Shown here in pieces: positions 3,501-33,372 of a stretch of DNA of 64,000 nucleotides. This DNA comes from a bacterium (GTDB lineage Bacteria; Hinthialibacterota; Hinthialibacteria; H5-UNCL2): contig JABTUV010000013.1 of assembly GCA_015075175.1 (NCBI GenBank), positions 61,355 through 125,354 on the forward strand, in the 5' to 3' direction. Position 1 is the first letter of the stretch. Every line of letters begins with the position of its first letter. The notes beneath the pieces are model-generated. The model did not search any database and was not told the origin of the DNA. It saw only the letters and a program-made list of their open reading frames with translations. Made by a program: the position numbers and the translations under genes.

Positions 3501-3512
3501 GATTGTACCTCG

Positions 3513-4247: not shown

Positions 4248-4258
4248 TCGTTTAATCC

Positions 4259-4326
4259 CCCCTGACCCCCCTTGTTAAGAGGGGACACGATTCCCCCCTG
4301 GCCCCCTTTGTCAAGGGTGGGACGCT
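4259..4326. repeat. GC-rich palindromic repeat (CCCCCCTTGTTAAGAGGGG type), two units
   Basis: Two adjacent units between pilM and pilN, each a run of C, a short AT core (TTGTTAAG or TTGTCAAG) and a run of G, can fold as hairpins. The same family appears inside coding sequence at 15383-15420, 16880-16965 and 17938-17975. Confidence 0.7.
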
Positions 4327-4350
4327 CCGGCTTCCTGCTCAGGTTCCGTT

Positions 4351-5709
4351 TCATGACTTGTGGAAGAACGACCGCAGCGACAGCCCGATGCCGACGCCCA
4401 GAAGCGGATACAACGCCTCCGCCTCCTGCCGGCTCATCTCCGAGCGAATGCGGGTAAGCGGCTCCAGGCGATGGCACTTCACGTCCAGGACGTGCTCGAA
4501 GTACTTCTCGATGTTGCGCATCTTGGACAGCCCGCCCGACAGGATGATGCGGCTGATGACCTCCCCGCCCAACTGGTTCTCGTAGTAGAGAAACGAGCGC
4601 TTGACCTCGCCGATGATCTCGCCGATGAAGTGCTCGCAGATTTCGGCGACCCGCTGCCCTTCCGGTCCGTATTCCAGGGCGGTCGCGTCCACTTCCGGCG
4701 TCAACTGGTCGATGGTGCGCGAGATGTCGGAGAGAATGTCGCGCGGAGCGGGTTGACTGAGCTTGATTTCGGGTTCCGGCTCGGGCGTCTCGTAGAGCGA
4801 CTTGAAGTCGGCTTCGGATTCGTCGTAGAGCGACCCGCCGGGCTTCTCCTTCTCTTCGTGGAGCACGTGGCCGCCGGAGAGGAGATAGTCGTCGTGGGAG
4901 GGAGCCTGCGCGCCGGGGCCGCGGCTCTCGCCCGTCTGCGCCGACAGGAGAATGCCGTACTTGTGCGTCAGCCCTTCCGCCTCCCGGCGGTCCACTTCCA
5001 ACTCCCCCGTGATCGCGTCCAGGATGTTCCTACCGCCGATGGACAGGTCGCGGGTGAAGCGCGTCACCCCGTCGCGCAGGATGGCCACACTGGTCGTCTG
5101 GCCGCCGATGTCCACCAGGGCTACCGCCTCGCCCGCCTTGATGGCCCCGCACTCCGACAGGGCGTTGCAGAGCGCAAAACTGGCCACGTCGATCACCACC
5201 GGCTCCAGCCCCGCGTCGCGCAAGAGCGAGAGCCGCTCCTCGATCACGTCCTTGCGCACGGCCACGATCAGCACTTCCGCCACCCGGCTGTTCTCGTGCT
5301 CCAGCTCGCCCAGCTTCTGGAAATCGAACACCACGTCTTCCATGTCAAAGGGGATGAAGTCGCGGGCCTCTCCGCGCACCGCGAACTCCAGGCTCTCTTC
5401 CGAGGCGTCGAAGATGGGCAGGCGCAGGATGCGCACGATCACGTTCTCGCCCGACACCGCGGTCGCGACCCGCCGGGTCGAGAACTTGTGCTCGCGCATC
5501 AGCGTCTTCAGCGCCGCCAGCGTCGCCCCCCGCCGCTCCGCCGGGTCCGTCCCCGCGCTGATGGGTACGATCCCGTAAGGCGCCAACTGGTAGCCCCGCT
5601 CGTCGCGGTACAACTCCACCCCCTTCACCGAGTCGTACCCGATGTCTAAACCGATCAGGTTTTTTGATCTGGAAACAAGGCCGGTTAATCGCTCCACAAT
5701 GCCCGACAA
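4351..5709 (-). CDS. pilM: Type IV pilus assembly ATPase-fold protein PilM
   Basis: 452 residues of the actin/FtsA-like PilM family, which binds the PilN N-terminus on the cytoplasmic face. The start is a TTG seven bases after a strong GGGAGGG ribosome binding site. Visible motifs are phosphate-1 (NLIGLDIGYDSVKGVEL), a second nucleotide-binding strand (VALVDIGGQTTSVAIL) and the C-terminal IILSGGLSKMRNIEKYFE. Residues about 255-345 are an acidic, proline-rich insertion (GPGAQAPSHDDYLLSG through ETPEPEPEIKLSQP) that usual PilM proteins of about 350 residues lack. It is the first gene of the pil operon. Confidence 0.9.
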   Translation of the reverse strand: MSGIVERLTGLVSRSKNLIGLDIGYDSVKGVELYRDERGYQLAPYGIVPISAGTDPAERRGATLAALKTLMREHKFSTRRVATAVSGENVIVRILRLPIFDASEESLEFAVRGEARDFIPFDMEDVVFDFQKLGELEHENSRVAEVLIVAVRKDVIEERLSLLRDAGLEPVVIDVASFALCNALSECGAIKAGEAVALVDIGGQTTSVAILRDGVTRFTRDLSIGGRNILDAITGELEVDRREAEGLTHKYGILLSAQTGESRGPGAQAPSHDDYLLSGGHVLHEEKEKPGGSLYDESEADFKSLYETPEPEPEIKLSQPAPRDILSDISRTIDQLTPEVDATALEYGPEGQRVAEICEHFIGEIIGEVKRSFLYYENQLGGEVISRIILSGGLSKMRNIEKYFEHVLDVKCHRLEPLTRIRSEMSRQEAEALYPLLGVGIGLSLRSFFHKS

Positions 5710-5802
5710 CAGATCACCCTCCCGTTTGCGCCGCTCGACGCGTTCCCCCCGGAACTACCCCGGACAGCCTGTTCTCAAGGCCTTCTTTCGCTCGGCAAGC
5801 AG

Positions 5803-5830
5803 AGTATAACGCGAATCCATCAATATTCAA
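5803..5830 (-). promoter_or_regulatory. Sigma-70-like promoter for the pilM operon
   Basis: On the minus strand a -35 TTGAAT (5825-5830), a 16-bp spacer and a -10 TATACT (5803-5808) lie about 95 bp before the pilM start. The surrounding gap (5710-6010) is AT-rich compared with the rest of the window and holds no gene. Confidence 0.6.
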
Positions 5831-6010
5831 AAAATGGCCTGGAGCTTTGCACGACTGTAATAATTTGTTATGCTCTTCCGTTCGCGGCAGGGCCACCGGG
5901 AAAAACTTAAACCCATATAGCATCCCGCCGTGGTTAAACTTAGTCTTTGACGGATATTATGTCAATGACCAAATTCCCACTTCGGGTTTTCGGCGGTTCC
6001 AGCCGAATCT

Positions 6011-8090
6011 TTACGGGTTTTCCGATTGGGACGGGCTTTCCTTGAGGTTAGTGAGCTTCTCTTGAACTTGGTTGTTAGACGGGTCCAATTCCAGCGCCCG
6101 CAGCCACTGCTCGCGGGCTTTTTCGGGCCGCTTGGCGGCCAGGTACGCGTCTCCCAGATGGTCGATGATCGGGTGAATCAGGCGAGAGCCGGGCCGCCCG
6201 CTCCAGCTCCGCGATGGCCTCCTCGACTCGCCCCTTGCGATACAAAACCCAACCCAGGCTGTCCACGATGCTGCCGTTGTCCGGCGCCGCCTCCAACGCC
6301 CGGCGGATCAGTTGCTCCGCCTCCTCCAGCCGCATGTTCTTGTCGGCGAAGGCGTACCCGAGGAAATTGAGCAGATGCGCGTTGCCCGGATGCCGCGCCA
6401 GATACTGCCGGGCGACCGCTTCCATCTCCTCCAGCCGCCCCTCCTCCAGGTAGGTCTGCGCGATCAGCATGGCGGCGTCCTCATCGTCCGGATCCAGGCC
6501 GGCCGCCTCTCAGCCGCCGCCCGCGCCTTCCTCGTAGCGCGCCAGCGAAAGCAGCGTCTGGGCGCGGAAATCGTGAATGAAACCAGTTGCTTGCGCTTTT
6601 CCGGCTCCGCGGAGGCCGAGGTTCCACCAGCCGCGCCGCCGCTTCCAGATGCGGGCAGCACGGCCTCATGATTCTTGTCCCGGCGATACAGTTTCGACCA
6701 GGTTGATGTGCACGTCCAGGGCATCGGGATTGCGCTGGATAGCGGCTTGAAGGCCGCCTTGGCCTACCTCCTCCCGCCCATGTCCAGATAGGCCAAAGCC
6801 ATCCCCTTGTCGGCCAGGTGGCCGTCCGGATCGGCCTGCTTCAGCAACTGAAAGACCCGCAGCGCGCTCGAAGCGTCCCTTGACCAGTTGCAGGTACGCT
6901 CCACCCATCTGAAACGCCAACCGGTGCGCTTCCGCGCTGCTCGATGCAGCCGCAACACCTCCGCAAGGTACTCCTCCGACTTGGTGTACTGTTTGAAGGT
7001 GAAATGCAGATAGGCCAACATGCGCAGGCCCTCTTCGTCGTTGGGCACGATGCGCAGCACGTCCTCGAACCAGTCCGCCGCCGCGCGGTGGTCCCTGGGG
7101 ACTGCCGTATTTGACCAGAAGACGCGCCAGGCGGCGGCGCGACTCACGTCGTCGCGCTGGCTGTGGGCCATCAGCGAGTAAATGCGCTGGGCGTCGCCGA
7201 CGTCGCCCTTGCCCTCCATCGCCTCGGCCAGGGCCAGGTAGGTCTCGCGGTTGGGATACTTCTCCAGCACAAGTTTGAACTGGTCGATGGCGGCGTCATA
7301 CTCGCGCAGGCGCAGCCGGCACGCCCAGGGCATGTCGCACCGGCAGCTTGCCCGGGTCGCGCTTGAGCAGCCTCGAACCAGCGGGCGGCGGGCGCCCAGT
7401 CGGACTGGTTGTAGTACTGCTGCGCCATGGCCGCCAGCGGCGTCGTCGCGGGAGAGGCTCCAGGACGCGCTCGAAGACGAGGTCGGCGCCTGTCGCGTCG
7501 CCCACGGCGTAGAGCGCTTGGGCGTAGGTCATCAGCACGTCCGCGTCCCGGGGCGAGAGCCGTGCGGCCTCCTCGGCCACGGGCAGGGCGGCCTCCGGCG
7601 ACCCCTGCTCTAGGCGCAGCCGGGCGACTTTCCAGAGCAATACAGAGGTGACGCTGGCCGCCGCCAATGCCTCTTGATAGGCGGCCAACGCCTCCGCCGG
7701 ACGGCCGTCGCGCTCCAAGAGCATGGCCCGCATAGTGGCATGGCGGGCGGCCGCTTCCGCCTCCGCCGCCGCGGTGGGCGCAGGCGGCGCGATCGGCCCC
7801 TCGACCCTCATCCCCGGCTCCGCCTCGCGCGTCGCCGCCGGCGGGATCACCTCAAGTACCGGCGCGACCGGCGCAATCTCCCCCTCCGGCGTGGCCGCCG
7901 GAATTCTCGCCTTCTCCAACTCCTCCTCGTCGCGCCGCTCCTGCCGCCGTTCCTGCCGCTCGGCCTCGCGCTCCAACGCCTCTCGCGCCGGCGTCTCACC
8001 CCTCCGCAACCCCGGCACACTCACCCCACAGCTCCATAAAAAGGGCAAAAGCAACGCTAATATCAAAAAGATCAAACGACTTGTTTTCAT
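6011..8090 (-). pseudogene. TPR-repeat lipoprotein, broken by several frameshifts
   Basis: The gene starts MKTSRLIFLILALLLPFLWSC, a lipoprotein signal with the cysteine in place, so it should be anchored in a membrane. A charged linker and then tetratricopeptide repeats follow. Good matches occur in successive frames: AAYQEALAAASVTSVLLWK (first frame), YDAAIDQFKLVLEKYPNRETYLALAEAMEGKG (second) and AEQLIRRALEAAPDNGSIVDSLGWVLYRKGRVEEAIAELERA (last). The end reads LRALELDPSNNQ to a TAA at 6011-6013. The whole would be about 690 residues. At least five single-base indels interrupt it, so it is either decayed or, more likely, badly sequenced. It starts 10 bp after nadK, suggesting one operon. The function is probably an assembly scaffold. 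Confidence 0.75.
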
Positions 8091-8100
8091 CCGATATCCC

Positions 8101-8976
8101 TTACGGTTTCTGTAACCCGCCCAGATAGAACTTGTTTCTTAAAACGTCAAAATAGGTCCGCCGCGGCGACTTGACGAGTATGAACCAGTACTTGTCGCCG
8201 CACAACTCGACGCTGCCCTCCGGCGGGACCTCCAGGTTGAGCTGGCCGTCCACGGTAGCTACCACCGTCTCCTCCCCCTGGCCCGTGACCTCGAATCGCA
8301 GCCGATCGTCGGCGCGCAGCACCAGCGGCCGCGCCGCCAGCGTATGCGGGCAGACTTGCGTGACGATGGTCGCGTCCACGTCGGGAACCACGATGGGGCC
8401 GCCCGCCGACAGCGAGTGTCCCGTCGATCCCGAGGGCGTCGAGACGATGATGCCGTCGGTGCGAAACTCGATGGTCGAGCTCCCGTTAACCGTCATGCGC
8501 ACGTGAAGCAGCCGGCGCGCGGAGAAGCGCGCGATGTACACGTCGTTGACGGCGGCGGTCTCCGCGACCAGCCGGTCGCTCTTGTCCCTCACCTGGCAGG
8601 CCAGGGCGCGTCGCCGGGAAGTGGAATAATCGCCGTTCGCGATATGTTGCAGCACTTCCGGCAGCTCGGGCACGGAAGCGCTGGCCAGGAAACCGAAGTT
8701 GCCGATCTTGACACCCAAGAGCGGCACGGGCCGGCGGCAGTAGGCGCGCGCCACCGAAAGGAGCGTGCCGTCCCCCCCCAAGACCACGATCAGATCGCTC
8801 TCGTTCAATACTTCCGGCTCGGGCCGGCCGGATTCCCCCAGCCGCGCCGCCAATTGCTCCTCCACCAGCGGCTCCAGCGACAGGCCGGCGACCAGTCGCA
8901 CCGCATCCCGCGCCACCGCGCAGGCTTCCGGCTTGTCCAGATTGGCGATCAGTCCGATTCTCCGGGGCGGCTCCAT
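8101..8976 (-). CDS. nadK: NAD kinase
   Basis: 291 residues of the ATP-NAD kinase family, which phosphorylates NAD to NADP in the cytoplasm. The nucleotide-binding motif LIVVLGGDGTLLSVAR is intact, and so is the substrate loop TDGIIVSTPSGSTGHSLSAGGPIV. The family's usual TAYSLSAGGP reads TGHSLSAGGP, a small departure. I chose the ATG at 8974-8976, six bases after GGAG, over the upstream GTG. It sits between the prepilin peptidase and the TPR lipoprotein genes on the same strand. Confidence 0.92.
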   Translation of the reverse strand: MEPPRRIGLIANLDKPEACAVARDAVRLVAGLSLEPLVEEQLAARLGESGRPEPEVLNESDLIVVLGGDGTLLSVARAYCRRPVPLLGVKIGNFGFLASASVPELPEVLQHIANGDYSTSRRRALACQVRDKSDRLVAETAAVNDVYIARFSARRLLHVRMTVNGSSTIEFRTDGIIVSTPSGSTGHSLSAGGPIVVPDVDATIVTQVCPHTLAARPLVLRADDRLRFEVTGQGEETVVATVDGQLNLEVPPEGSVELCGDKYWFILVKSPRRTYFDVLRNKFYLGGLQKP

Positions 8977-10450: not shown

Positions 10451-10696
10451 TCAGTACCTGCGGCCTTCCTCGATCAACTCGCGAATCGACAGTCCCCCCA
10501 GCGTGAGGTTGTCGCTGATTCTCCGCATTTCGGCGATGATCTCGCTCACCGGCCTCTCGGAGTTGCTCTCGACGCGGACCAACCTGGCGACCGGCACGCC
10601 ATGGCGCGTGATGACAATGCTCTCCCCCCGCTCGACGCGATCCAGGAGCTTGGAGAGATTCGTTTTCGCCTCGTAAGCTCCGACCCTTGCGGCCAT
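10451..10696 (-). CDS. Phd/YefM-type antitoxin (VapB partner)
   Basis: 81 residues: MAARVGAYEAKTNLSKLLDRV and GESIVITRHGVPVARLV match the Phd/YefM DNA-binding fold. The C-terminal RELIEEGRRY tail is typical of the toxin-neutralising segment. A GGAGG precedes the ATG. The toxin start follows the stop codon by 2 bp, so the pair is co-translated. It probably represses its own promoter through the repeats at 10709-10738. Confidence 0.87.
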   Translation of the reverse strand: MAARVGAYEAKTNLSKLLDRVERGESIVITRHGVPVARLVRVESNSERPVSEIIAEMRRISDNLTLGGLSIRELIEEGRRY

Positions 10697-10708
10697 TTTT
10701 CACCTCCG

Positions 10709-10750
10709 ACCAGTCTAAACCAGTCTAGACCAGTCTGTTGGCAAAGTCAA
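10709..10750 (-). promoter_or_regulatory. Promoter and repeated operator of the toxin-antitoxin pair
   Basis: Three direct repeats of ACCAGTCTA(A/G) at 10709, 10719 and 10729 are spaced exactly 10 bp, one helical turn. On the minus strand the -35 is TTGACT (10745-10750) and the -10 is TAGACT (10722-10727), with a 17-bp spacer. The -10 lies inside the middle repeat, so antitoxin binding would block transcription. This is read directly; the regulatory role is inferred from the Phd family. Confidence 0.72.
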
Positions 10751-10774
10751 GCGATGAACCTGCTCCTAAAAATG

Positions 10775-10915
10775 CGCCTTGGTAAGCTTGCGAGAGAAAG
10801 AAAAACCGAGTCCTCGAGTAACGGCCCGTCGAATCGCCCGCTTGAGGTGCGAGCTGTATCTTCGGGCCGCGTATCGAGAGGACGGGCTGGTTGCGCCCGG
10901 ACCGTCTTCGGAGCC
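10775..10915. repeat. Dispersed about 140-bp repeat with palindromic CGAGTCCTCGAG core, copy 1
   Basis: It shares long blocks with 15017-15155: AAAGAAAAACCGAGTCCTCG near the left end and TATCGAGAGGACG near the right. The two blocks are partly complementary (GTCCTC/GAGGAC), so the element may fold as a long hairpin. It occupies the gap between the toxin-antitoxin promoter and mnmG and contains no gene. Confidence 0.7.
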
Positions 10916-11001
10916 GGCTTGTTTTTCACCCTCTATGGTTGAGGCAAAGCCTCATGAGGGACTTTCCCCGGGCCGGGCATCCGTGGTAGCGTGACCGCGC
11001 T

Positions 11002-12894
11002 ATGGCGGCGGGACGTTGCGACGTGATCGTGGTCGGAGGCGGCCATGCGGGCTGCGAGGCGGCGCTGGCTTCGGCGCGGCTGGGATGCCGCACTCTGCTG
11101 GTCACTCACGACGCGCGCACCATCGCCGCGCTCTCCTGCAATCCCGCCTGGGGCGGCGTCGCCAAGGGCCAACTGGTGCGCGAGATCGACGCTTTGGGCG
11201 GCGAATGCGCCCGGAACACAGATCGCACCGCCATCCACTGGCGCATGCTCAATCGCGGCAAAGGCCCCGCCGTCCATTCGCCGCGCGCGCAGGTGGATAT
11301 TTTCGACTATCCGGCCGAGATGCAGAAGGTCATCGCCGGCCAGGATGGCCTCACCCTGCACGAGCGCGAAGCGGCCGGCCTCCTGGTCGATGGGCGGCGA
11401 ATCGTGGGCGTGCGCGACGCCGATGGCAATGAGTTCACGGCCGACGCGGTCGTGTTGACCACGGGCACGTTCCTGGGGGGACGCATCTTCATCGGCGACG
11501 TGGTGCGACCGGCCGGGCGGATCGACGAACCCGCCGCCCTGGCCATGTCGGAGAGCCTCCGCTCCCTGGGGCTTGCCATGCGCCGTATGAAGACGGGTAC
11601 GACTCCGCGTCTCGACCCCGCCAGCATCGACTTCTCGCGCTTGGAGAAGCAGCCGGGCGACGAGCCTACCGAGCGCTTCTCCTTCCGCGACTCGCCGCAA
11701 ATCAACAACCGGATTTGCTGTTACATCACCTACACCAACGAGGCGACGCACCGCGTTATCGGCGACAATCTCGGCCGCTCACCTCTCTACTCGGGCAAGA
11801 TCACCGGCATCGGGCCGCGCTACTGCCCCAGCATCGAAGATAAGGTCAAGCGCTTCCCCGAGCGCGCGCGCCATCACGTATTCCTGGAGCCGGAACGGCG
11901 GGAGGGCGGGCGCATCTATCCCAACGGGCTGTCAACCAGCCTGCCGGAGGACGTGCAACTGGCCTATCTGCGCACCATCCCCGGCTTGGAGGAAGTCGTC
12001 GTCCTGCGGCCCGGTTACGCGGTCGAGTACGACTGCGTCGATCCCACAGAGCTGCGACACACGCTGGAGTTGCGCGACTGGCCGGGGCTGTTTCTGGCCG
12101 GACAAATCAACGGTACGTCGGGATACGAGGAAGCCGCCGCGCAGGGGCTGGTCGCCGGCATCAACGCGGCCCTCTCGGCGCAGGGCCGGCCCGCCTTTAT
12201 CCTCTCACGCCGCGAGTCCTACATCGGCGTCTTGATCGATGATCTCGTGATGAAGGGAACGGACGAGCCCTACCGCATGTTCACCAGCCGGGTCGAGACT
12301 CGACTCAGCGTGCGGCAGGACAACGCCGACCTGCGCCTGATGAAGTACGGGCGGCAGCTGGGACTGATTACGGAGGAGGAATTCTCCCGTGTTGAAGAAC
12401 TCTCGCGGGCCGTCGAGTCGGAGCGGGCGCGCCTGGATCGCCACGTGGTCGTGCCGGACGGCCCGACGCAGGCGCGACTGTCCGCGGCGGGCGCCGCTGT
12501 TTTGACCAAGCCCGCCCGGCTGTCCGAGCTCCTGCGCCGCCCCGGCGTCACGTATCACGACCTGGCGCATTACGGTCTCTCGGAACCCGTCAACGGACGC
12601 GTGGCCGAACAGGTCGAGATTCTCTGCAAGTACGAGGTGTATCTGGAGCGGAGCCGGCGCGAGGCGAGCCGGGCGGAGGCCTGGGAGACCCTGCCCATCC
12701 CCGCCGATGCAGCCTTTCACGGCATTCCCAGCCTGTCGCGCGAGGCCGCGGACAAGCTGGCGCGCTACCGGCCCGCCACGCTGGGCGAGGCGTCGCGCAT
12801 TCCCGGCCTGACGCCTTCCGACCTGGCGGCGCTCTTCTGCCGCCTCGCCCGGAGTACAGGCTTCAGCCCGCCGGCCGAGCAAACTGAAGTTTGA
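11002..12894 (+). CDS. mnmG: tRNA uridine-5-carboxymethylaminomethyl(34) synthesis enzyme MnmG (GidA)
   Basis: 630 residues. The FAD-binding motif [20 protein letters not shown] is at residues 7-26, followed by the family signature [20 protein letters not shown]. Further conserved blocks include [22 protein letters not shown] and the second nucleotide motif [21 protein letters not shown]. MnmG works with MnmE to modify the wobble uridine of several tRNAs. The C-terminal recognition domain is present (SSERTIG-like region, RSTGF tail). The last dozen codons and the stop lie in a copy of the GGAGTACAGGCTTCAGCC repeat. It stands alone on the plus strand. Confidence 0.96.
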
Positions 12895-12951
12895 ACTCCC
12901 CCGGAGTACAGGCTTCAGCCTGCTTGCCATCCAAACTGAAGTTTGCACTCC
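12850..12951. repeat. Tandem copies of an intergenic hairpin repeat (GGAGTACAGGCTTCAGCC...)
   Basis: Two copies, 12850-12899 and 12902-12951, each read CGGAGTACAGGCTTCAGCC, a variable middle, then CAAACTGAAGTTTG and ACTCC. The arms are complementary (GGAGT/ACTCC, CTTCAG/CTGAAG). The first copy encodes the C-terminus and stop of mnmG. The convergent neighbouring gene ends at 12969, so the pair may act as a bidirectional terminator. Confidence 0.75.
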
Positions 12952-12968
12952 GACGCCCTCGACACGAC

Positions 12969-14930
12969 CTACTGCGCCGGCGCCTCCCCCACGATCCCCG
13001 ATATGTCGATCATGTACATCTGCCGCGTGCCCTCGTGCGTCGAGTCGATGATCACCTTGCGCGCGTCCCGCGAGAGACGGGGATGGTTGTCGCAGCGCAC
13101 GTCCCCCCAGTACTGCCGCCCTTGCGGAAAATGCCCCAGCGGGATGAACCGCTTGGTCGGGATGTGCATCAGGTACACGTGTTGCACCCGGTCGGGTCCC
13201 TGCGGAATCGTGTCCGACAGAAACCACTCCCTGCCCGGCAGGAGCGTGTGATGCCCCGGGGGAGCGGCGACCAGCCGCTCTCCCTTCATCGAGCCGTCGT
13301 CATTGAAGAGAAAGAACCCGCCGCGACGCGGGATCTCGATCAAGAGCCGCGTCGCGTCCCACCAGTCGTAATGCGACGCCATGTACGTAACGACCCGGAT
13401 GTCCGAGCCGTCCATGTTGGCCGTGGTGATGCGCGAGTCGATGGTGTCGCCCCGGTTGAAAAAGAGAAACCGTTTGCCGTCCGGACTCCACTGCGTGTGC
13501 GCCACATAGAGCCGATCGCCGGGTTTCTGCTTGGGATAGGGAATCTTGGCGATGTCGGCCACCGACACGATCAGCTTGTGCTCGCCGGTGTCCAGGTCCA
13601 TCAGCCAGATGCCGGTATCGTCGGGCGCGGGAACCTTGCGAAACTCCTCGGGATCGCGCACGGCGTAGCCGACGACCGTTCGCAGGGCGCCGGCGCGCGC
13701 AAAATCCTGGCAGGTGGCGTGCCGGCCGTCCGGATGCACCTGGTCGATGGCCAGGGGCAGCGTGCGCATCGCCCCCGTCTTCACGTCCAGCACCCGGCAG
13801 ACGAAGCGGTCGCCCTCGCGGTCGTTGTAGAGAATCTCGCGGTCCGAGCCGGGCCGCCATTGCAACATGCAGCCCTGCTGGAAGTTCCAGGCGCCCGTCT
13901 CCGCCAAGGGAATCCACTTGTCGCCGTCCTGGGTGTCGATCATGCCGATGCGCGCGACATCCGAGGGACCGGGGACGCGGAGATCGAAATCGGCCTCCAG
14001 CGAGAGCACGTAGCGGTCGGTCGGATCCGTCTGAAACTTGTCGTAGTAGCCGAACCAGTGCGGCTTGGGCCCCTGCGTCAGGGCGCGTATCGGCGCCGGC
14101 TTCGCGTCCGGGTCCAGCACCGCCTTCTCCCACTCGGTGCGCCCGTCGGGAGGCTCTTCCGTCAATCCCAACGAGGCCGCCCACTTCTGGATGGCCTCCC
14201 CCTCCAACGCTACGGGATGGATCCAGACGTCCCCCAGGATCGCGTCGGCGTGCACATCCGTGCCGGGTCGCGCTCCCAAAAGAACCGGGGTCTCGTTTTC
14301 ATGGATGCGGTCGGGTATTCTCCGCGTCAACTCCCCGCTGAGATGTCCATTGACGTAGAGCGCCATGCGCCTGCCGGGATCGAACACGGCGGCCACGGCA
14401 TAGGGGCGGCCACGCTGCAGGCCGTGCCGCCCATCCATCTTGATCCGGCGGCCGTCCGCCAGCCCGCTCGCACTCACCTGCCAGTACAGCCGCCCGTCGC
14501 CGGAAAAGCCGAACTCGAACGAGCGCAGTCCGTCACGGGGATTCCACTTGGAGCAGAGCGGCGACTGCGTCTCCTCCAGCATCGTCGGCTGCACGACCAT
14601 GGCCAGCGTGAGCGGTCCGCGTCCGGCCCAAAACTCTCGCCCGGGATGCCCGTTCAGCTCGAAGCGGGTCTTGCCTTCCGACACGAACAGCAGTCCCTGG
14701 CCGTCGCGAAAGGACGTAACTTTAGGCGCGTCGGTTTGCCCCGACGCGTCGCTCTTCCAACTGAAATGCATCGCGGCATCCTCCACTTGCATCATCAAGA
14801 TTCCATCCCTTTTCCCCGGCTCCGCCCACATGAAAACCGGAAGCGACACCGCCAGCACCCAGACCATCCCCCACACCGCGCCGGTCGTCCGCGCGCCGGC
14901 CCCCGGCTTCCGCCGGCGCCTCTCCTTCAC
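12969..14930 (-). CDS. Secreted protein with LamG-like lectin domain and seven-bladed-type beta-propeller
   Basis: About 650 residues. I prefer the GTG at residue 19 of the open frame, giving a basic start and the hydrophobic segment VWGMVWVLAVSLPVFMW; the start is uncertain. A concanavalin A-like (LamG) domain covers the first third: GPLTLAMVVQP, RLYWQVSASG, AVAAVFDPGRRMALYVNG. The rest begins GPKPHWFGYYDKFQTDPTDR and repeats WSPDGKRFLF and DVRCDNHPRLSRDARKVIID strands, as in TolB or oligogalacturonate-lyase-like propellers. It is a close paralogue of 15182-16761. Binding or processing of a polysaccharide outside the cytoplasm is likely; no catalytic residue is identified. Confidence 0.72.
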   Translation of the reverse strand: MKERRRRKPGAGARTTGAVWGMVWVLAVSLPVFMWAEPGKRDGILMMQVEDAAMHFSWKSDASGQTDAPKVTSFRDGQGLLFVSEGKTRFELNGHPGREFWAGRGPLTLAMVVQPTMLEETQSPLCSKWNPRDGLRSFEFGFSGDGRLYWQVSASGLADGRRIKMDGRHGLQRGRPYAVAAVFDPGRRMALYVNGHLSGELTRRIPDRIHENETPVLLGARPGTDVHADAILGDVWIHPVALEGEAIQKWAASLGLTEEPPDGRTEWEKAVLDPDAKPAPIRALTQGPKPHWFGYYDKFQTDPTDRYVLSLEADFDLRVPGPSDVARIGMIDTQDGDKWIPLAETGAWNFQQGCMLQWRPGSDREILYNDREGDRFVCRVLDVKTGAMRTLPLAIDQVHPDGRHATCQDFARAGALRTVVGYAVRDPEEFRKVPAPDDTGIWLMDLDTGEHKLIVSVADIAKIPYPKQKPGDRLYVAHTQWSPDGKRFLFFNRGDTIDSRITTANMDGSDIRVVTYMASHYDWWDATRLLIEIPRRGGFFLFNDDGSMKGERLVAAPPGHHTLLPGREWFLSDTIPQGPDRVQHVYLMHIPTKRFIPLGHFPQGRQYWGDVRCDNHPRLSRDARKVIIDSTHEGTRQMYMIDISGIVGEAPAQ

Positions 14931-24587: not shown

Positions 24588-25174
24588 TCAGGGCGGGCCG
24601 AAGCCGATGATGTCCCCCGGCGACATGACGCCGTTGGAAATGTCATACAACACCCCGCACGGCGCGTTGTGGATGCGATTGGGCCCGGTCGACAGCGTCA
24701 GATACTGCTTGCCCTGCTCCCGGTACGCTTTGCGCGTCATCAGGTCCCCTTCCGGCAGCCAGCCCGGCACCGTTCCCGCCAGCGACGACGGCTCGCTGAT
24801 CATCGGCTCCAGATGGTACAGGCCCCAGACCCGCCCGTAGATGTTCGTTCCCACGCAGTTCATCACCGTGTTCGAGTTCTTCAGGTAGAACGGGTCGAAC
24901 AGCCCTGCGACATGTACTTGATGGCGTGGTGAAAACCGATGCTGGCTGCGCTCGTGGTTGTGCAGGTAGGTCTGCACTTCCGTGGCCGAGATCAGCCCCA
25001 ATCGACGCGATAGGCCTCCACCGCCAGAAAGAACGTGTGGAAATCCCCCTGCACCCGCGACACCTTGGCGCGGATTTGCGCGGTCAGAAAATTGGGGACC
25101 GCGATGGCCGCCAGGATCGCAATGATGGCGACCACGATCAGGAGCTCAATCAGTGTAAAACCTCTCCGACGCAT
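24588..25174 (-). CDS. Type IV pilin-like / pseudopilin protein (frameshifted)
   Basis: The first frame starts at the ATG after GGAGG and reads MRRRGFTLIELLIVVAIIA: a prepilin cleavage site G|FTLIE plus the hydrophobic helix. ILAAIAVPNF and the alpha-helix AQIRAKVSRVQGDFHTFFLAVEAYRVDWG follow. At about 25001 a one-base slip in a GGGG run shifts reading. The next frame carries the C-terminal globular part (YGRVWGLYHLEPMISEPS, ending MSPGDIIGFGPP). A second slip near 24930 hides a GFHHAIKYMSQ helix. PilD would process it. It belongs with the pseudopilins common in this type of genome rather than the main pilin, which is not in the window. Confidence 0.8.
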
Positions 25175-25278
25175 TGCCGAACCTCCTTGTTTGCGCCCGA
25201 GGCGCAATTGCTGTTCCTTCCTTGACACGATGTCGCTCGCAACCCGTTTCGCTGGCGATGCGCGGCGCGGGCGCGCCG

Positions 25279-25866
25279 TCATATCGCCATGCCCGGGCCT
25301 TTCTGAATGAAATAGTTCCCCGGCCCCAAAAGAAAGATGTCGCCGTCGCTGATGAGGCCGTTGCTGGGATCATAAGTCGGCTCCCGCCATTGGGCCTGCA
25401 CGTCGCGGTCGGGCCCGAAGCTGTACGTGCTGTACCAAAACGTCTTTCGCGCGAACGACTGCCAGCGCCTCTGCCAGAGATAGTCCAGATACACGCTCCC
25501 GTCCGCCTGCTGCCAGACCACCAGGTTTTGGTAGTGGTAGGGGCCTTCGGGAAATGGCGTGGCCACGCCGCTCTCGACCCAGGAGGCGTTCTTGGAGAAG
25601 GGGTCCCACGGCAGCCGCGCCAGATAGGCCACCGGCGTCGTCAGCTTGTTGAGCCGCGTGTACTGCAGCGGCGTGGTCGGCGGGTAGTGGCCGTAGTCCG
25701 TCATGTAGGCCTCGATGGCCACTACCAGGCTGGAAAGGTCGGCCTGCACGCGCGCCACCCGGGCGCGCGTCTGGGCCTGCAGATAATTGGGTACCGCAAT
25801 CGCCGCCAGGATCGCGATGATGGCGACCACGATCAACAGCTCGATGAGCGTGAAACCTCGTCTCAT
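25279..25866 (-). CDS. Type IV pilin-like / pseudopilin protein
   Basis: 195 residues starting MRRGFTLIELLIVVAIIA, with a prepilin cleavage motif and an intact ILAAIAVPNYLQAQ helix, then ARVARVQADLSSLVVAIEAYMTDYGHYPP. The C-terminal domain has LTTPVAYLARLPWDPF and ends SNGLISDGDIFLLGPGN, the same terminal motif as the neighbouring pseudopilin. The long upstream open frame is not coding. A GGAGG lies ten bases before the ATG. The two genes are tandem paralogues and follow the promoter at 26015-26043. Confidence 0.88.
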   Translation of the reverse strand: MRRGFTLIELLIVVAIIAILAAIAVPNYLQAQTRARVARVQADLSSLVVAIEAYMTDYGHYPPTTPLQYTRLNKLTTPVAYLARLPWDPFSKNASWVESGVATPFPEGPYHYQNLVVWQQADGSVYLDYLWQRRWQSFARKTFWYSTYSFGPDRDVQAQWREPTYDPSNGLISDGDIFLLGPGNYFIQKGPGMAI

Positions 25867-26014
25867 GCCGCGAGACCCTCCCTGGCGCCTGCGAGCCGAA
25901 TGGCGTTCTCCGCAAGAAAGACTTCCCCGATTCCGTGGCAGCGAGTGGTTCTGTATGGGGAAACCGACATGCGAAACACACGTGCGCGACCCAATCTGAC
26001 CGCGACGGAAGATG

Positions 26015-26043
26015 AAATTACGTCTCGATTTAACCGATGTCAA
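26015..26043 (-). promoter_or_regulatory. Strong sigma-70-like promoter upstream of the pseudopilin genes
   Basis: The minus strand has a perfect -35 TTGACA (26038-26043), a 17-bp spacer and a -10 TAATTT (26015-26020) in an AT-rich stretch. Transcription would start about 140 bp before the pseudopilin at 25866 and could continue through the second pseudopilin and beta-helix genes. A GGCGTAA...TTACGCC inverted repeat further upstream (26154-26186) could be a regulator site. Confidence 0.65.
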
Positions 26044-26201
26044 GCAAATTATCGAATCGATTCGCGCGCATCCATTCAAAAGCGCCCAATAGTTATTGTA
26101 AGTCATTAAAAATCAATGGAATGCGTAGAAAATTTGGTCGCAGTATGCACGCTGGCGTAATTATCGTTTATGTTATTATTTACGCCATGGTGGGTCGCAC
26201 G

Positions 26202-27820: not shown

Positions 27821-28045
27821 TTATTCCCTGGTGCACAACGGGTAAACACCCTCCCGCTCATCCGGGTATCGGACCGCCAGGTTGAACCGGCTGATCATTT
27901 CAAGCTGGTTCAAGACCGGCGGTTCCGGTACCAGTCCGCACTGCTCCGCCAACCGCGCAAGGTCCTGAATACGTGGCGCGTTGCAAGTGGGAAGACAGAG
28001 AACGGGCATGATGGGTTCGGTCGCGGCGAAGGACCGTGTCGGCAT
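27821..28045 (-). pseudogene. C-terminal remnant of a HEPN-domain protein
   Basis: The segment APRIQDLARLAEQCGLVP through NQLEMISRFNLAVRYPDE matches the second half of HEPN proteins (H-D-L-x-x-L ... Y/F-x-x-x-R-Y-P-D). The first half is absent; the 5' end instead reads through a GTCGGCATCCTGCCGAC hairpin from the repeat family seen at 43.3 kb. With the nucleotidyltransferase remnant it suggests a dead HEPN/MNT pair. Assignment is from pattern recognition only. Confidence 0.5.
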
Positions 28046-28211
28046 CCTGCCGACGCGGCGGCGGACGTGCGCAGCGACACCTGAAACCGCGCTTCCTGTA
28101 AGCGCTTCTACGTTGACCCGACGGTTGCGTTGTGCTATTTTTTACACGTCCCCAGTTGGACTCGGAGATCTCGCCAGGCAAGGCCACATATGCTGACGCC
28201 TGAATGCGGCG

Positions 28212-29907
28212 TACGTAGTTTCTGTTGCGGAAAGGGCTTTTGGCACGGAAATGTGGAGCGCGGCGAACGGTTGACGCTCTGAGCATCGCTCGCAGAGACG
28301 GCGAAGGCCTGTCAGAGTAACATTTCGTACTGAGATCACGATGCCTGATTTCGGGCAGACTCCTTCCCCTCAACATTTCCGCAGTCCTTTTTCAGCCCGC
28401 CCTGGCGCCAGCGCAACCAAGCTACAGTCGCGTCAGCAGCACCAGGGTTGTGGCACAGCACCGCGCAGCCCACGCTGGCGGCGAAGTTTTAAATCCCTCA
28501 TAAAGGCACCGATTCGTGCTGTAGGCCCGTTTTAACACTGATCGGCCTCCGACCCCGCGCCGGAATCGCTGTCCCGCCTTAAGATCCTCGCTCCTCTCCG
28601 TGCCGTCTCCTCCTTGGTGCGGCGCCCCAGGTTGGCGATCGAGACGGTCTTGATTTTCTCCCGCAGGCTCGCCAACTGCCCGCGCTCCGGTAGAACCCCC
28701 TGTCCGCCGCCAGCACCTCGGCAGACTCCCAAACAGGTTGCGGTGCGACTCCAGCGCCGGCGTCAAGACTCCCTGTCGTCCAGGTTCCTCTCCAGCACCT
28801 GGTAGTGTGTGATGAACTCTCCCTGCTCTGCGACAGCAGCACGCAGCCTGAACTCGATCGGTTTCGGCTTGCACTTGCATCAACAACTCGGTGTGCGGCC
28901 TGAACAGGCTGAACACCTTCTCGTCGTTGGGGACCTGCTCCCCAACAGCACCCGCCGCTCGGCTTGGTCGATGATCCGCTCCACCGTCGGCAGGCAGGTT
29001 TGTAACTCCTCGCAGGTCGCTTCCGCCAGAATCAGCGCCCCCTGTGTCCCCTGCACGCCAGCCCGTGTTGGCCAGCAGTTCGACGACTCGCGCCTGATGC
29101 CGCGACCCAGCGCACGCGTTCAATCAGCACGCGGTAGCGCGCCTTGACCCGCCGCTGGGTGGAGCGGCTGGTACTCCTTGCCGTTGCGGGCCAGGAAGGT
29201 GAAGAGCCATTTGGCAGCTTGCGTGTGGTAGCGATGCGCCAGCCCAAGCCCGGCAGTCCCTTTTGCGCCCGCTTCAGGACTCGCCGCCAGCACCCGGTAA
29301 CTGTCCCACAAGAGCGAGGCGTCGGTCAGGAAGTGATGTTGGTCGTAGGCGGTCGAGTCCATGCGCAACTTCCTCCGCTGATCTTCTCCTGGTTCACCGC
29401 GAACTCGGCCAGCGCCTGGTTCATGGCCTCCAGCGTCCGGGCCGAGAGCGCCCATCGCCTTGCAGAGGAAGGTGTGAGTCCATCATCGGGCGCGTCCCCA
29501 GCCCGACGAAGCCGCGCAGAAAACTCGCTGGTATCGATGCGACTCACTGCCGCCCGGTAGGGCAGCTGCTCGACAAACATCACCACCAGCGCCCGCAAAA
29601 TCTCCTCGCAACTGTAGGCTGCGCGGCGTCCCCTGCCGGGAGGTGGATAACTTGCCCGCCCAGTCGCGGTGCGCCAGGCGCAGCAACTCGGGTTGGCGGC
29701 CAACAGCGTGGCGATCCGCTCGTGCTTCTCCTGGTACTGCCGGACCACCTTTAAAGTTGACTTCCCGCCCCAGTTGAAGTACTGTTGCAGGTATTTTCAA
29801 GCATGGCCTGCTCCTTTCGGGTTTTGGTCTCACAACATTTACCCTACAGGGAGCAGGCCTTACTTTTACGATGGTCGATTCTGCTTTTCCGCAACAGGAA
29901 CTACGTA
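28212..29907 (-). mobile_element. Insertion sequence with terminal inverted repeats
   Basis: The left end (28212-28236) reads TACGTAGTTTCTGTTGCGGA and on. The complement of the right end (29883-29907) reads TACGTAGTTCCTGTTGCGGA and on, an inverted repeat of about 25 bp with few mismatches. Between them lies one transposase gene on the minus strand, about 100 bp from each end. The size of about 1.7 kb fits a simple IS. The palindromic TACGTA edges make the target duplication hard to define; a TA or GTA duplication is possible. Its right end lies 18 bp before the start codon of the next gene. Confidence 0.78.
28336..29804 (-). pseudogene. Transposase (ISNCY-like DDE type), frameshifted
   Basis: From the ATG at 29802-29804 the protein would read MLEKYLQQYFNWGG once a missing A is restored. 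Pieces in successive frames are VVRQYQEKHERIATLLAANP, CEEILRALVVMFVEQLPYRAAVSRIDTSEF, RMDSTAYDQHHFLTDASLLWDSYRVLA-like and the C-terminal SVLKRAYSTNRCLYEGF. DTTVYETNIHYPTDSSLL-type blocks and the LKR...RALYKGF end are known from ISNCY-like transposases. At least six slips occur over 1.4 kb, so the gene is either inactive or poorly sequenced. Confidence 0.68.
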
Positions 29908-29925: not shown

Positions 29926-30687
29926 ATGAGTCTGAGTGACGACGCGAAAGAATTGGGCAAACTGGCGAAAAGACTGGAGATCGCCGGGAGGGACGGTGAT
30001 CCGGTTGAATTCCAGAAAGTCGTCGGGAAGCTTTCCCAACTCGCCGCGGCCATCCCTGGCCGGTTTGAGTCGGCGCGCAAGGAAGTGGAATCCGAACTGG
30101 AAACGCTTCAGCCGGAAATGCCCGGGTATTACCCAGAATTAGAAGGGGAGCTTCGCAACAACGGATGCGATTTCACCGGCGCCTTTCCAGAATACTCGAT
30201 TTTTCCGTGCGTGTTGAAGATTCGCGTGCAGGAGAAACAGGCGGAGCTCAGCCTGGGACGAACCGTCAGGAAAACTACGAAGCTGCGCCCTGCGGTACTT
30301 GCGAAGTGGGCCAAGCAACAAAGCATTGCCTTGCAGAAGGTCCGTTTCAACCGCGAACAGTTCATGAAGAACTTGCGCAAGGCTTACGAATTGGCTACCC
30401 AGTTGCAGTACGGCGAGACGGCGGACAAATGGGACCGGCCTGCCTCACTTCACCGCATATACGAGCTGCTCGCAGGCATTGCCGCCGGCAAGCAGGGTTA
30501 TCCACGCGAACAGTTCGAGAGCGACCTAACGCGCCTAGCGAATGGCGATCCGATGATCGACGTCGAACACGGACTCACATTCGAATTGGGGTACTCTCGC
30601 AGTCAATCCGGAACTTTTCTGATCCGCCGGCCGCATGGCGCCGAGGAACGGGTGAAGACGCTCACCATATACAACAAGAAGCGCTGA
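29926..30687 (+). CDS. Conserved-looking protein of unknown function, first gene of the paired-ATPase operon
   Basis: 253 residues from MSLSDDAKELGKLAKRLEI; the frame is open upstream only through the IS end. I do not recognise a named domain. The N-terminal half is helical and charged, with a likely coiled coil (FESARKEVESELETLQPEM). A beta-rich centre reads SIFPCVLKIRVQEKQAELSLG. The C-terminal part has a helical bundle (FMKNLRKAYELATQLQYGE) and ends with a short strand FELGYSRSQSGTFLIRRP. There is no membrane segment or signal peptide. Base composition is visibly less GC-rich than the neighbours. It precedes the first ATPase gene by 21 bp, so it is likely part of the same complex. Confidence 0.75.
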   Translation: MSLSDDAKELGKLAKRLEIAGRDGDPVEFQKVVGKLSQLAAAIPGRFESARKEVESELETLQPEMPGYYPELEGELRNNGCDFTGAFPEYSIFPCVLKIRVQEKQAELSLGRTVRKTTKLRPAVLAKWAKQQSIALQKVRFNREQFMKNLRKAYELATQLQYGETADKWDRPASLHRIYELLAGIAAGKQGYPREQFESDLTRLANGDPMIDVEHGLTFELGYSRSQSGTFLIRRPHGAEERVKTLTIYNKKR

Positions 30688-30708
30688 CGGAGCGATCGGA
30701 GGTCCACC

Positions 30709-31932
30709 ATGCCGGTATGTCGTTTCGATCTTGATCTACTTCGGCGGGGGCAGCCACCCGTCGCGGACAGCGACTTGCTCCTGGACATGACGGTCGGGAC
30801 AGAATTGTGGCTCGAGCGCGTGCGTGAACACTACCTGGAAAACTTCATTCGTCATGGAGGCAGTAAGGTCAAACTTGTAGTCGGCGGTGCGGGAACGGGG
30901 AAGAGCCATCTCCTGCGGTGGATCGCGGCGACGGCCGCGAGGATGGATTATGCCACGGTCTTTCTGAGCCTCCGGGAACCGGACGCCGAAACAGGCGACT
31001 TGCTGCGCTTCTCCAATATCGTTGAATTTTACAAAGCTGTTGCAAAACGCCTCGATCTGAATTCTCTTTGGAGCGGTGTTTGCACAAGGGTCGTCCGTGA
31101 GCTCGGTTATAAACCGGAGGACTACGACTTCGACAGGCCCATCATTTCCATGCTGGTAGAGAGAGAGCGTCTTCCTATCGCTGAGGCAAAACGGAGACTT
31201 TCGGAGGCTACAGCCAGCGCTTGGTCACACTGCGGGTTGAGCCTCGCCTTTGTGACCTTTTGCTTCAGACTCGTCGCCTGCCGAGGGGAATCCATAGAGC
31301 AGGCGCGTGCCGACCTATGCTTCCGATGGCTTTCCGGGGAGAAACTCGACTTAGCCGATGCGCGGCGAGTCATGCTTTTTGAGCGCCTCTCGAAGCCGAA
31401 TGCCCGCGTCTGGTTGTATTCGCTCGTGCGCATGCTTACGCTGGCGGGATGGTCCGGCGTGGTCGTCCTTATTGACGACCTCGATTTTCTCCCTGATGGC
31501 CTGAATCTTCAAACGGGGAGACCGTTCTACACGCCGAACCAGTGCAAAGACATTTGGGAATCGATGCGACAGCTGATCGACGAGGGCGAAAAGCTCCCGC
31601 ATCTTTTTGTTGTTCTGGGCGGGCGCTCCCCATTTATTGAGGACGAGAAAAAGGGAGTGAAAAGCTACGAGGCGCTGTGGATGCGGTTGCAGAGCGGCCT
31701 GGCGCCCGGTACCGATTTTAATCCCTGGCGTGACATCGTGGATGCCGACCTGCTCTTACGCGCCCTTGGGGGAAATAGCTTCTGCGAGCAAGTGGGAACC
31801 TCCTTGTCCAATGTGCTCGAGCAGCGCGGTCATGCGCGGCTATACAAGGAATTCACGCCGGATGCTGAAGACTCGCTGCTCAGGCAGCGCGTGCGAGAGG
31901 CCGCAACCATGGCGGATGGTGAGGTAGCATGA
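30709..31932 (+). CDS. P-loop ATPase A, BrxD-like (DUF2791-type)
   Basis: 407 residues. Walker A GGAGTGKSHLL is at residues 59-69, Walker B VVVLIDDLDFL at 251-261, and a sensor-like strand LFVVLGGR at 299-306. The long insertion between Walker A and B and the LxxRxPD-like AAA layout recall the BREX ATP-binding protein BrxD. A GGAGG precedes the ATG. The stop overlaps the start of the second ATPase by four bases. The BrxD resemblance is my reading of the motifs, not a search result. A role in DNA-targeting defence is inferred from that family. Confidence 0.72.
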   Translation: MPVCRFDLDLLRRGQPPVADSDLLLDMTVGTELWLERVREHYLENFIRHGGSKVKLVVGGAGTGKSHLLRWIAATAARMDYATVFLSLREPDAETGDLLRFSNIVEFYKAVAKRLDLNSLWSGVCTRVVRELGYKPEDYDFDRPIISMLVERERLPIAEAKRRLSEATASAWSHCGLSLAFVTFCFRLVACRGESIEQARADLCFRWLSGEKLDLADARRVMLFERLSKPNARVWLYSLVRMLTLAGWSGVVVLIDDLDFLPDGLNLQTGRPFYTPNQCKDIWESMRQLIDEGEKLPHLFVVLGGRSPFIEDEKKGVKSYEALWMRLQSGLAPGTDFNPWRDIVDADLLLRALGGNSFCEQVGTSLSNVLEQRGHARLYKEFTPDAEDSLLRQRVREAATMADGEVA

Positions 31933-33215
31933 TGCATGAATACCCCAAGGAACGGCAGCGGGCGATAAGGATTATCGAGTCATTACGCTCCGGCGTGCCC
32001 ACGCGGGAATCCACGCTGGATCTGCCTGACGTGCGCCCCGGCCTGCGGGACCTTATCGAAAAGGACCTCGATCGGCTCGCTGCGGGTGAAAGGGTATGCG
32101 GCAGGATCATTTGGGGCGAATATGGCCAGGGCAAGTCGCATCTCCTTCACATGGTGGCCCATTGGGCCCTCGATCGGGGGTTCGCCGTCAGCCTGCTCAC
32201 CCTCAGCCGGGAAATCTCGGGACAGAGTCTGTTCCAACTCTTTCGCCGTGCGGCTCCCATCGTTTGCGCGGCACATTCCAGCGTCCCGGGGCTGCAATCT
32301 CAGCTCGCAGGGCTGTCTCCGACAGCGCTAGTCCAGTCTCCCATTCAGTCCGACGGCCGCTATTGCCATCCCCTACCGGCGCGGGTGGCAGAACTGATGT
32401 GGCGTGTGGGTGCACCCGAGGACACGGACCAGCTTTACTACCATCTCGCGGGCGATCTCTTGAAGATGCCCGACTTGCGGCAAATCGCCAAACACGCGGG
32501 GCACGCGGATCTTCTGAAGGGTTTACCCTCATTCAGGCAGGAAGAACACGCGCCCGCGCTGTTCGGCTTATGGAGCGATCTGGCGCGGCTGTGTGGCTAT
32601 CATGGCTGGGTGATTCTCATCGACGAAGTCGAGCTCGTTTCTCGCTTGGGCAAGATAAGCCGAGCGCGGGCCTATCTCAATCTTGCCCGACTCCTACAAT
32701 GGGTAGACGGCGCGGCAACGCAGTATTCGATCTATACCTTGGGCGCCGCCGCAACTTCGCTGAAAGGTTTTTGGAACGATGGGCAACGCGGCCAACCGGG
32801 CGACATCGAGGCGATCCCGCCACTGTGCGTGGAGCGCCCAAAATTCGGTCAAGCCGGCGCCGAGGCGTTGGAAAACTTCTTCCGCCAATGCATGGACGAC
32901 GACCAGTGTCCCACGTTGCAGCCGGTAGACGAAAAACATCTAAGTAAACTCTTCGACAGCGTTATTACCCTTCATGGCGAAGCCCACGCCTGGAAGGCTT
33001 CCATGGTGCGCGAGAACCTCCGTGACTTGCCGCAAAACGCTCCTATCCGGACCCGCATCCGGGCGTTGGTAGAGATGTTGGACCGCGCCTCCGTTACCGG
33101 GATAGTCGTCCCGCCAACAACAGATGTCCTCGTCGAACCCACCGTGGGCGAGGAGCCAGGATCCTTCTCCGAGGATGACGTTGATGAAAACGGTGGAGAA
33201 CCCATTCCGACCTAG
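31929..33215 (+). CDS. P-loop ATPase B, BrxD-like (DUF2791-type)
   Basis: 428 residues. The N-terminus RAIRIIESLRSGVPTRESTL closely follows the BrxD pattern (RxxIexLRsGvPxR). Walker A GEYGQGKSHLLHMVAHWAL is at 63-81, followed by AVSLLTLSREISGQSLFQLF. Walker B GWVILIDEVELVSR is at 226-239. This is the clearer BrxD relative of the two. It overlaps ATPase A by ATGA, implying translational coupling and equal dosage. No BREX methylase (PglX), phosphatase (PglZ), BrxC or helicase is in the window. The acidic C-terminus (VGEEPGSFSEDDVDENGG) is low complexity. Confidence 0.78.
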   Translation: MMHEYPKERQRAIRIIESLRSGVPTRESTLDLPDVRPGLRDLIEKDLDRLAAGERVCGRIIWGEYGQGKSHLLHMVAHWALDRGFAVSLLTLSREISGQSLFQLFRRAAPIVCAAHSSVPGLQSQLAGLSPTALVQSPIQSDGRYCHPLPARVAELMWRVGAPEDTDQLYYHLAGDLLKMPDLRQIAKHAGHADLLKGLPSFRQEEHAPALFGLWSDLARLCGYHGWVILIDEVELVSRLGKISRARAYLNLARLLQWVDGAATQYSIYTLGAAATSLKGFWNDGQRGQPGDIEAIPPLCVERPKFGQAGAEALENFFRQCMDDDQCPTLQPVDEKHLSKLFDSVITLHGEAHAWKASMVRENLRDLPQNAPIRTRIRALVEMLDRASVTGIVVPPTTDVLVEPTVGEEPGSFSEDDVDENGGEPIPT

Positions 33216-33287: not shown

Positions 33288-33372
33288 CGTCGTGTCGGCG
33301 TGCTGCCGACACTCACGTGCGCCATCGGGGACGCGACGTCCCCGCCACCGGCGACTGCAAGTCGCCGCTACG
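33288..33372. repeat. Three-hairpin dispersed repeat
   Basis: Three consecutive perfect stems: GTCGGCGTGCTGCCGAC, GGGGACGCGACGTCCCC and GGCGACTGCAAGTCGCC. The same order occurs twice at 43.3-43.5 kb. It lies between the convergent ATPase operon and BNR fragment. The rest of the gap (33216-33287) holds no gene. Confidence 0.78.

Follow-up and report, generated by a model that had tools for sequence, protein, structure and literature searches.

A recurrent three-gene cassette with two unlike BrxD-family ATPases and exchangeable linked motors

The ATPases BrxD and SngB both belong to described phage defenses. In type 2 bacteriophage exclusion (BREX, or Pgl) systems BrxD forms a dyad with the helicase BrxHI, and in Shango a TerB-like protein (SngA), a BrxD-family ATPase (SngB) and a helicase (SngC) are encoded in a three-gene operon. 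In a published account of BREX, BrxD is proposed to load BrxHI, and BrxC combines an AAA+ domain of the origin recognition complex (ORC)/Cdc6 type, a winged helix, an alpha+beta domain and a coiled coil in one chain (PMC12839542). Another paper describes paired Orc/CDC6 genes that occur with a KAP NTPase in a mobile operon, the second protein of the pair having a disrupted Walker B motif (PMC10853773). Here we analyze a three-gene operon, G1-A1-A2, in a 64,000-nucleotide stretch of DNA (hereafter the window; positions 61,355 to 125,354 of contig JABTUV010000013.1, assembly GCA_015075175.1) from a bacterium of the phylum Hinthialibacterota. A1 and A2 are two unlike ATPases of the BrxD family, and the same trio recurs in other bacterial phyla, beside different motor proteins or beside none that our profiles detect.

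G1, A1 and A2 form a tight operon (Table 1). The plus-strand arrangement, the 21-bp spacing between G1 and A1 and the ATGA overlap that couples A1 to A2, all reported in an initial annotation of this DNA, are exact in the sequence, and the three reading frames are intact. The lower GC content that had been noticed by eye also holds on counting: 57-60% across the operon against mostly 60-70% in the surrounding 1-kb segments, with GC at third codon positions (GC3) at 66-69% against 85-88% in three neighboring genes.

The trio is conserved as a unit. A protein search with A1 yielded 64 proteins, the window's own included; the window's A1 was aligned with 45 of the 63 others (37 of 63 relatives were likewise taken into the A2 alignment), and scanning the A1 alignment against species genomes gave 49 loci, whose gene content was read with profiles of A1, A2 and G1, the last built from 42 loci. 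G1 is present at all 49 of these loci and A2 at 48, and the order G1-A1-A2 on one strand holds throughout once contig ends are allowed for, one contig (L036) ending inside A1 and three (L021, L034 and L051) beginning inside G1. All seven further cyanobacterial loci examined carry the trio, and five of the seven lie on contigs at least 2.6 Mb long. The hosts span Bacillota, Cyanobacteriota, Atribacterota, Coprothermobacterota, Cloacimonadota, Armatimonadota, Actinomycetota, Myxococcota, Thermodesulfobacteriota and a genome of the Kazan division. The pairwise identities of G1, A1 and A2 run parallel (r 0.93-0.97), which fits joint inheritance of the trio, though the shared ancestry of the hosts contributes. 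Of 14 genomes from the window's phylum, two have a full-length A1 and one more has no more than a partial match of 20 bits; in one cyanobacterial class the cassette occurs in at least 9 of 242 genomes (the genome at the center of the comparison included), a lower bound because seven candidates were scored per genome.

Some copies are damaged or incomplete. At a locus from the same phylum (L014:8490-9713, minus strand) an ISL3 transposase interrupts G1, and one cyanobacterial cassette (L125:6656-9947, minus strand) has internal stops in both A1 and A2, so that decay is likely. Among viral contigs 59 stretches matched an A1 pattern and one encodes a relative: on that contig (L053:1-3629) an A1-like piece stands directly before genes for a Mu-like portal and F protein, with no A2. 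The end of the contig looks unrelated, and it may be a chimera. A set of 50,697 phage records held no relative of the A1 that is nearest to the window's (that of L023).

Both ATPases belong to the Pfam family BrxC_BrxD (PF10923), passing its curated cut-off of 22.2 bits with 78.8 bits (5e-22) for A1 and 72 bits (6e-20) for A2, and they are the only PF10923 proteins in the window's genome, in which no BrxC was found. Scores of 67.2 and 53.8 bits against the NCBIfam BrxD equivalog NF033438 lie far below its cut-off of 350. The PADLOC BrxD model matches A1 over residues 8-372 (1.5e-19) and A2 in two stretches (1.4e-14). In a joint tree of 69 rows, covering the window and 31 of the 49 loci and built by a quick method with long branches flagged, the A1 and A2 sequences are two separate clades, the 32 rows of each falling on one side of a branch with support of 100 and 99. 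BrxD, two SngB proteins (a name based on an operon that also holds a TerB-like gene and a helicase) and the first ATPase of the Desulfomonile tiedjei plasmid pDESTI.01 group with A1, whereas the second ATPase of that plasmid groups with A2 (support 98). The initial annotation had taken the second protein of the operon as the close follower of BrxD and the first as its diverged cousin; the tree and the PADLOC matches reverse these roles.

The two proteins also differ in their catalytic residues. Walker A and Walker B motifs were initially described as intact in both, and both are present, but the Walker B motif of A1 ends in two aspartates, and the catalytic glutamate is missing in 50 of 51 A1 sequences. 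Among these 51 the position that follows the Walker B aspartate holds D in 36, N in nine, S in three and G, Q and E in one each. The sequences compared from BrxD, SngB and the plasmid all have this glutamate. Because A1 keeps the Walker A lysine and loses the catalytic glutamate, which A2 retains, A1 probably binds ATP but hydrolyzes it inefficiently, and A2 is the probable engine. Two arginines of A1, R287 and R326, are the same in all 51 sequences. An aspartate at this position can support slow hydrolysis. The suggestion of an obligate heteromeric ATPase is thus refined, in that two distinct ATPases do travel together and would make an asymmetric pair. Structures were predicted for G1 and A2, and the A2 model has an AAA+ core fold of the ORC/Cdc6 type, its top structural matches being archaeal Orc1/Cdc6 and eukaryotic ORC. 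ORC likewise holds unequal ATPase subunits within one complex. Unlike these proteins, however, the trio is bacterial and its winged-helix candidate resides on a separate protein, G1.

G1 remains as unrecognized as it first appeared, since no Pfam, PADLOC or NCBIfam model matches it above cut-off. Its predicted structure begins with a long helical hairpin (residues ~1-62), continues with a small alpha/beta part (63-140) and ends in a winged-helix-like domain (141-253) whose structural match is weak. On the basis of this C-terminal domain G1 is predicted to supply the DNA contact. A protein search from G1 alone returned only G1 itself, because its sequence diverges fast; its relatives were therefore gathered from the loci found otherwise. 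Sequence comparison with solved structures gave weak matches to the helical part, mostly designed helical proteins, and the model had no match at E<=0.001 in a library of viral structures. G1 matches neither the Pfam TerB family nor any PADLOC model at E<=1; no TerB-like entry stands in its Foldseek structure list, which is uninformative on this point, as a second look merely re-aligns that list.

What varies around the constant trio is the motor. We scanned the 49 loci with profiles of four motor classes, a scan that would miss other helicases and nucleases. A superfamily 1 (SF1) helicase with a topoisomerase-type zinc ribbon is linked at 13 of 49 loci (downstream at 12 and upstream in L038), a divergent SNF2 helicase at five and BrxL, directly downstream of the trio, at two. 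The remaining 29 loci have none of the four classes beside the trio, apart from a weak Cas3-like match at L052, where a protein 4 kb away matches the DEAD profile at 23 bits; ten of the 29 are flanked by 5 kb or more of DNA on each side, and two (L036 and L039) end before the expected motor position. Within the fetched flanks of the seven further cyanobacterial loci none of the four motors was found either. A further combination occurs on pDESTI.01: the gene after G1-A1-A2 encodes a helicase that the PADLOC models BrxHI and SngC match best. On a tree of 54 ATPases (46 labeled by motor and eight unlabeled, with L053 left out; again a quick tree with long branches flagged), the motor label changes at least seven times, with the SF1 label forming one clade and BrxL gained twice; 22 rows carried the label "none", 11 of them with less than 5 kb on one side. 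The motors around the trio are thus exchangeable. Two loci have other neighbors of interest: type I CRISPR-like genes (TM1802-like and Cas3-like) lie downstream of the cassette at L052:3983-9851, and in a cyanobacterium a 991-amino-acid CHAT-TPR protein, a possible effector, is encoded about 100 bp after A2 on the same strand (L119:12271-15243, plus strand).

A search for motors elsewhere in the genomes gave no consistent partner for the solo trio, many of these genomes being incomplete. SNF2 proteins of the linked family occur in 21 of 34 genomes (E<=1e-20), the match in the window's genome being weak and partial. This family is common in cyanobacteria, so that cyanobacterial matches are not evidence of partnership. 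Its relatives occur in many solo-cassette genomes; the linked SNF2 of L015 (L015 and L024-L027 being considered together) has its best NCBIfam score with SCO1167/SCO6262 and also matches the sll1366 model, in each case below cut-off. SF1 helicases at E<=1e-10 were found in 8 of 38 genomes: all four SF1-linked controls, none of six SNF2- or BrxL-linked genomes and 4 of 28 unlinked ones. The window has no helicase of the BrxHI/SngC type, and the two DEAD-type helicases with partial matches to these models lie on other contigs of its genome with no link to the trio; one of them, of 744 amino acids, matches SngC at 6e-45 and BrxHI at 1e-42 and the DECH_helic model far better. PglZ occurs in 9 of 38 genomes: 4/4 SF1-linked, 2/6 SNF2- or BrxL-linked and 3/28 without a linked motor. 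All four SF1-linked genomes searched (L035, L037, L044 and L048) thus carry it somewhere. At E<=1e-10 there is no PglZ in the window's genome, which is 84% complete. Because PglZ is absent here and present in only three of the 28 unlinked genomes, it is unlikely that the solo trio serves as a BREX helper in trans in most of these genomes. The trio recurs at the 49 loci, 29 of them free of the four motor classes, which supports the proposal of the initial annotation that the operon is a minimal module of three genes with no BREX core genes close by.

Several described systems resemble the trio in part. The BrxD-BrxHI dyad shares with it the placement of A1 and BrxD on one side of the tree and, on pDESTI.01, a helicase of the BrxHI/SngC type after the trio. 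However, the trio has two ATPases and G1 in place of a single ATPase, A1 lacks the catalytic glutamate that BrxD has, and the window's genome has no match to PglZ or BrxC. Shango is likewise a three-gene operon with a BrxD-family ATPase, SngB, on the A1 side of the tree; it differs in its TerB-like protein, in having no second ATPase and in its SngC helicase, a type that, the weak Cas3-like match of L052 apart, stands beside none of the 49 trios and is seen only on pDESTI.01. Compared with BrxC as described in the BREX account, the corresponding parts would here be split over three proteins, the ATPase being represented by two different subunits (PMC12839542). The paired Orc/CDC6 genes likewise form a mobile operon that encodes two ATPases of the ORC type and in which a single Walker B is altered, so pairs of this kind as such are not new; as described, they are set apart from the trio, in which the altered ATPase is the first, BrxD-side gene and the partner is G1 (PMC10853773). 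A literature search by titles and the beginnings of abstracts, with supplementary files and subscription papers outside its reach, found no account of the trio and no description of the A1/A2 asymmetry or of the motor exchange. The ATPase family is already known, and in the literature searched the trio, the asymmetry and the exchange of motors appear to be new.

The immediate surroundings of the window's copy bear on its expression and history. An insertion sequence (IS) lies 24 bp before the start codon of G1, with a 6-bp target duplication, TACGTA, abutting its ends (28212-28217 and 29902-29907). The genome holds two more copies, with 94% identity and with 83% over a part; the second genomic copy has identical ends and a TAATTA duplication. 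At no more than one mismatch, the genome holds 31 matches to a palindromic repeat, TGTCGGCRTSCTGCCGAC (a backward control gave 0); the copies of this repeat at 28037 and 33293 belong to a family resembling repetitive extragenic palindromic elements. The operon had been placed between an IS and a hairpin repeat: the IS is indeed upstream, but the repeat flanks both sides. Because the IS separates a promoter-like site from the G1 start, this copy of the operon may be silent, or the IS may drive it; a scan with one consensus found no promoter-like site on the plus strand inside the IS.

We tentatively favor, as quite possible, a model in which G1 and the two unlike BrxD-family ATPases make up a mixed AAA+ ring that loads or blocks motors on invading DNA. 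We envision that G1 would read or grip DNA, around which A1 and A2 would form the ring, A1 as a structural, hydrolysis-poor, ATP-binding subunit and A2 as the ATP-hydrolyzing engine, as in asymmetric ORC-type loaders. Where a helicase or translocase is linked, the ring would hand it onto the target DNA; in solo cassettes it might use a host motor or itself act as a roadblock on DNA. The target would be foreign DNA, because the nearest relatives are defense ATPases and the cassette is patchily spread. A broader version, that a split, asymmetric origin-recognition-like machine spread by transfer acts on foreign DNA with interchangeable motors or alone and is the common core of BrxD- and SngB-based defenses, we regard as speculative and rather doubtful.

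The kinship of A1 to BrxD and SngB, the BrxL and BrxHI/SngC-type partners, the plasmid copy, the patchy spread and the shifted GC3 of the window's operon all speak for defense. Other observations weigh against it. PADLOC families around solo loci number 70 against 133 in controls (102 open reading frames each, from 19 solo loci and 16 control stretches, 28 of 130 neighbors having been dropped at random to match the 102 of 102 controls; a small sample, with family tallies only), and the neighbors include housekeeping genes for alanyl-tRNA synthetase, GcpE, an S41 peptidase, a ClpB/C-type ATPase, a carbamoyl-phosphate synthase chain, iPGM and a glycogen debranching enzyme. Flanks are moreover common to the cassettes of related cyanobacteria, which suggests vertical keeping. 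With the lack of observed defense-gene enrichment and the ORC/Cdc6 fold of the A2 model, these observations suit an accessory factor for host DNA, the same ring acting in chromosome replication restart, repair or segregation; given the sparseness of the cassette, its plasmid copy, its low GC3 here and its defense-type relatives and partners, we consider this somewhat unlikely. A TnsC- or MuB-like module of a mobile element, in which the ATPases would form a filament that chooses insertion sites, is very improbable: no transposase is found among the Pfam-annotated neighbors (selected genes only), the one beside G1 of L014 interrupts that gene, ORC/Cdc6 structural matches rank higher, and the linked partners are helicases and BrxL.

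The mobile sequences at the operon's edges suggest two further histories. This copy could be a silent passenger that arrived by transfer and lost the link to its promoter when the IS inserted, the IS with its exact duplication lying between the promoter-like site and the G1 start; the disrupted G1 of the relative and the internal stops of the cyanobacterial copy are in keeping with such a fate. It is an unlikely one here, since the three frames are intact and the IS may carry an outward promoter, even if the one-consensus scan gave none. The flanking IS and hairpin repeats, with two ATPases that match BrxC_BrxD, could also mark the operon as what is left of a BREX or Shango system after loss of its remaining genes at the repeats, much as the initial annotation had offered the operon as a stranded part of something larger that the repeat had cut. 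This reading is disfavored because the same trio recurs alone elsewhere, at ten motor-free loci with at least 5 kb on both sides as well as at six of the seven further cyanobacterial loci; with no PglZ (at E<=1e-10) and no other BrxC/D match in this genome, which is 84% complete, we give a stranded fragment the slimmest chance of all.

Table 1. Operon, conserved motifs and flanking elements (window positions)
Feature	Position	Strand	Remark
G1, 253 amino acids	29926..30687	+	outside known families
A1, 407-amino-acid AAA+ ATPase, BrxD/SngB side	30709..31932	+	Walker B DD, catalytic Glu replaced
A1 Walker A GGAGTGKS	30883..30906	+	lysine in 51/51
A1 Walker B VVLIDD	31462..31479	+	second acidic position D here, E in 1/51
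A2, 428-amino-acid AAA+ ATPase, own clade	31929..33215	+	canonical DE Walker B; ORC/Cdc6-like predicted fold
A2 Walker A GEYGQGKS	32115..32138	+	lysine in 49/49
A2 Walker B VILIDE	32610..32627	+	E in 47/47 with a letter; gap in 2/49
Dispersed hairpin repeat, left copy	28037..28054	+	one of the 31 genomic matches
Promoter-like site left of IS	28113..28141	+	consensus match only; 2 found in region, 1.1 expected
IS element, 1684 bp	28218..29901		inverted ends and target duplication
Dispersed hairpin repeat, right copy	33293..33310	+	same orientation as left copy

Two observations lie apart from the operon. On another contig of the genome (L080) a 1699-amino-acid DruE-like helicase (3023-8122, minus strand) and, about 2.5 kb away, a DrmMI-like methyltransferase (10649-13885, minus strand) are encoded, a possible Druantia- or DISARM-like system. 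In the window itself, open reading frames at 24992-26106 (minus strand) have what look by eye like pilin-like leaders (GFTLIELLIVVAIIAILAAIAVPNF and similar).

If the broader model is true, the trio would be the common core behind BrxD- and SngB-based defenses. The trio offers a very small system, often without a linked motor, in which to ask what BrxD-family ATPases do. With motors that change around a core that stays the same, the idea of a loader can be tested directly, and the glutamate missing from A1 yields a clean mutational prediction.

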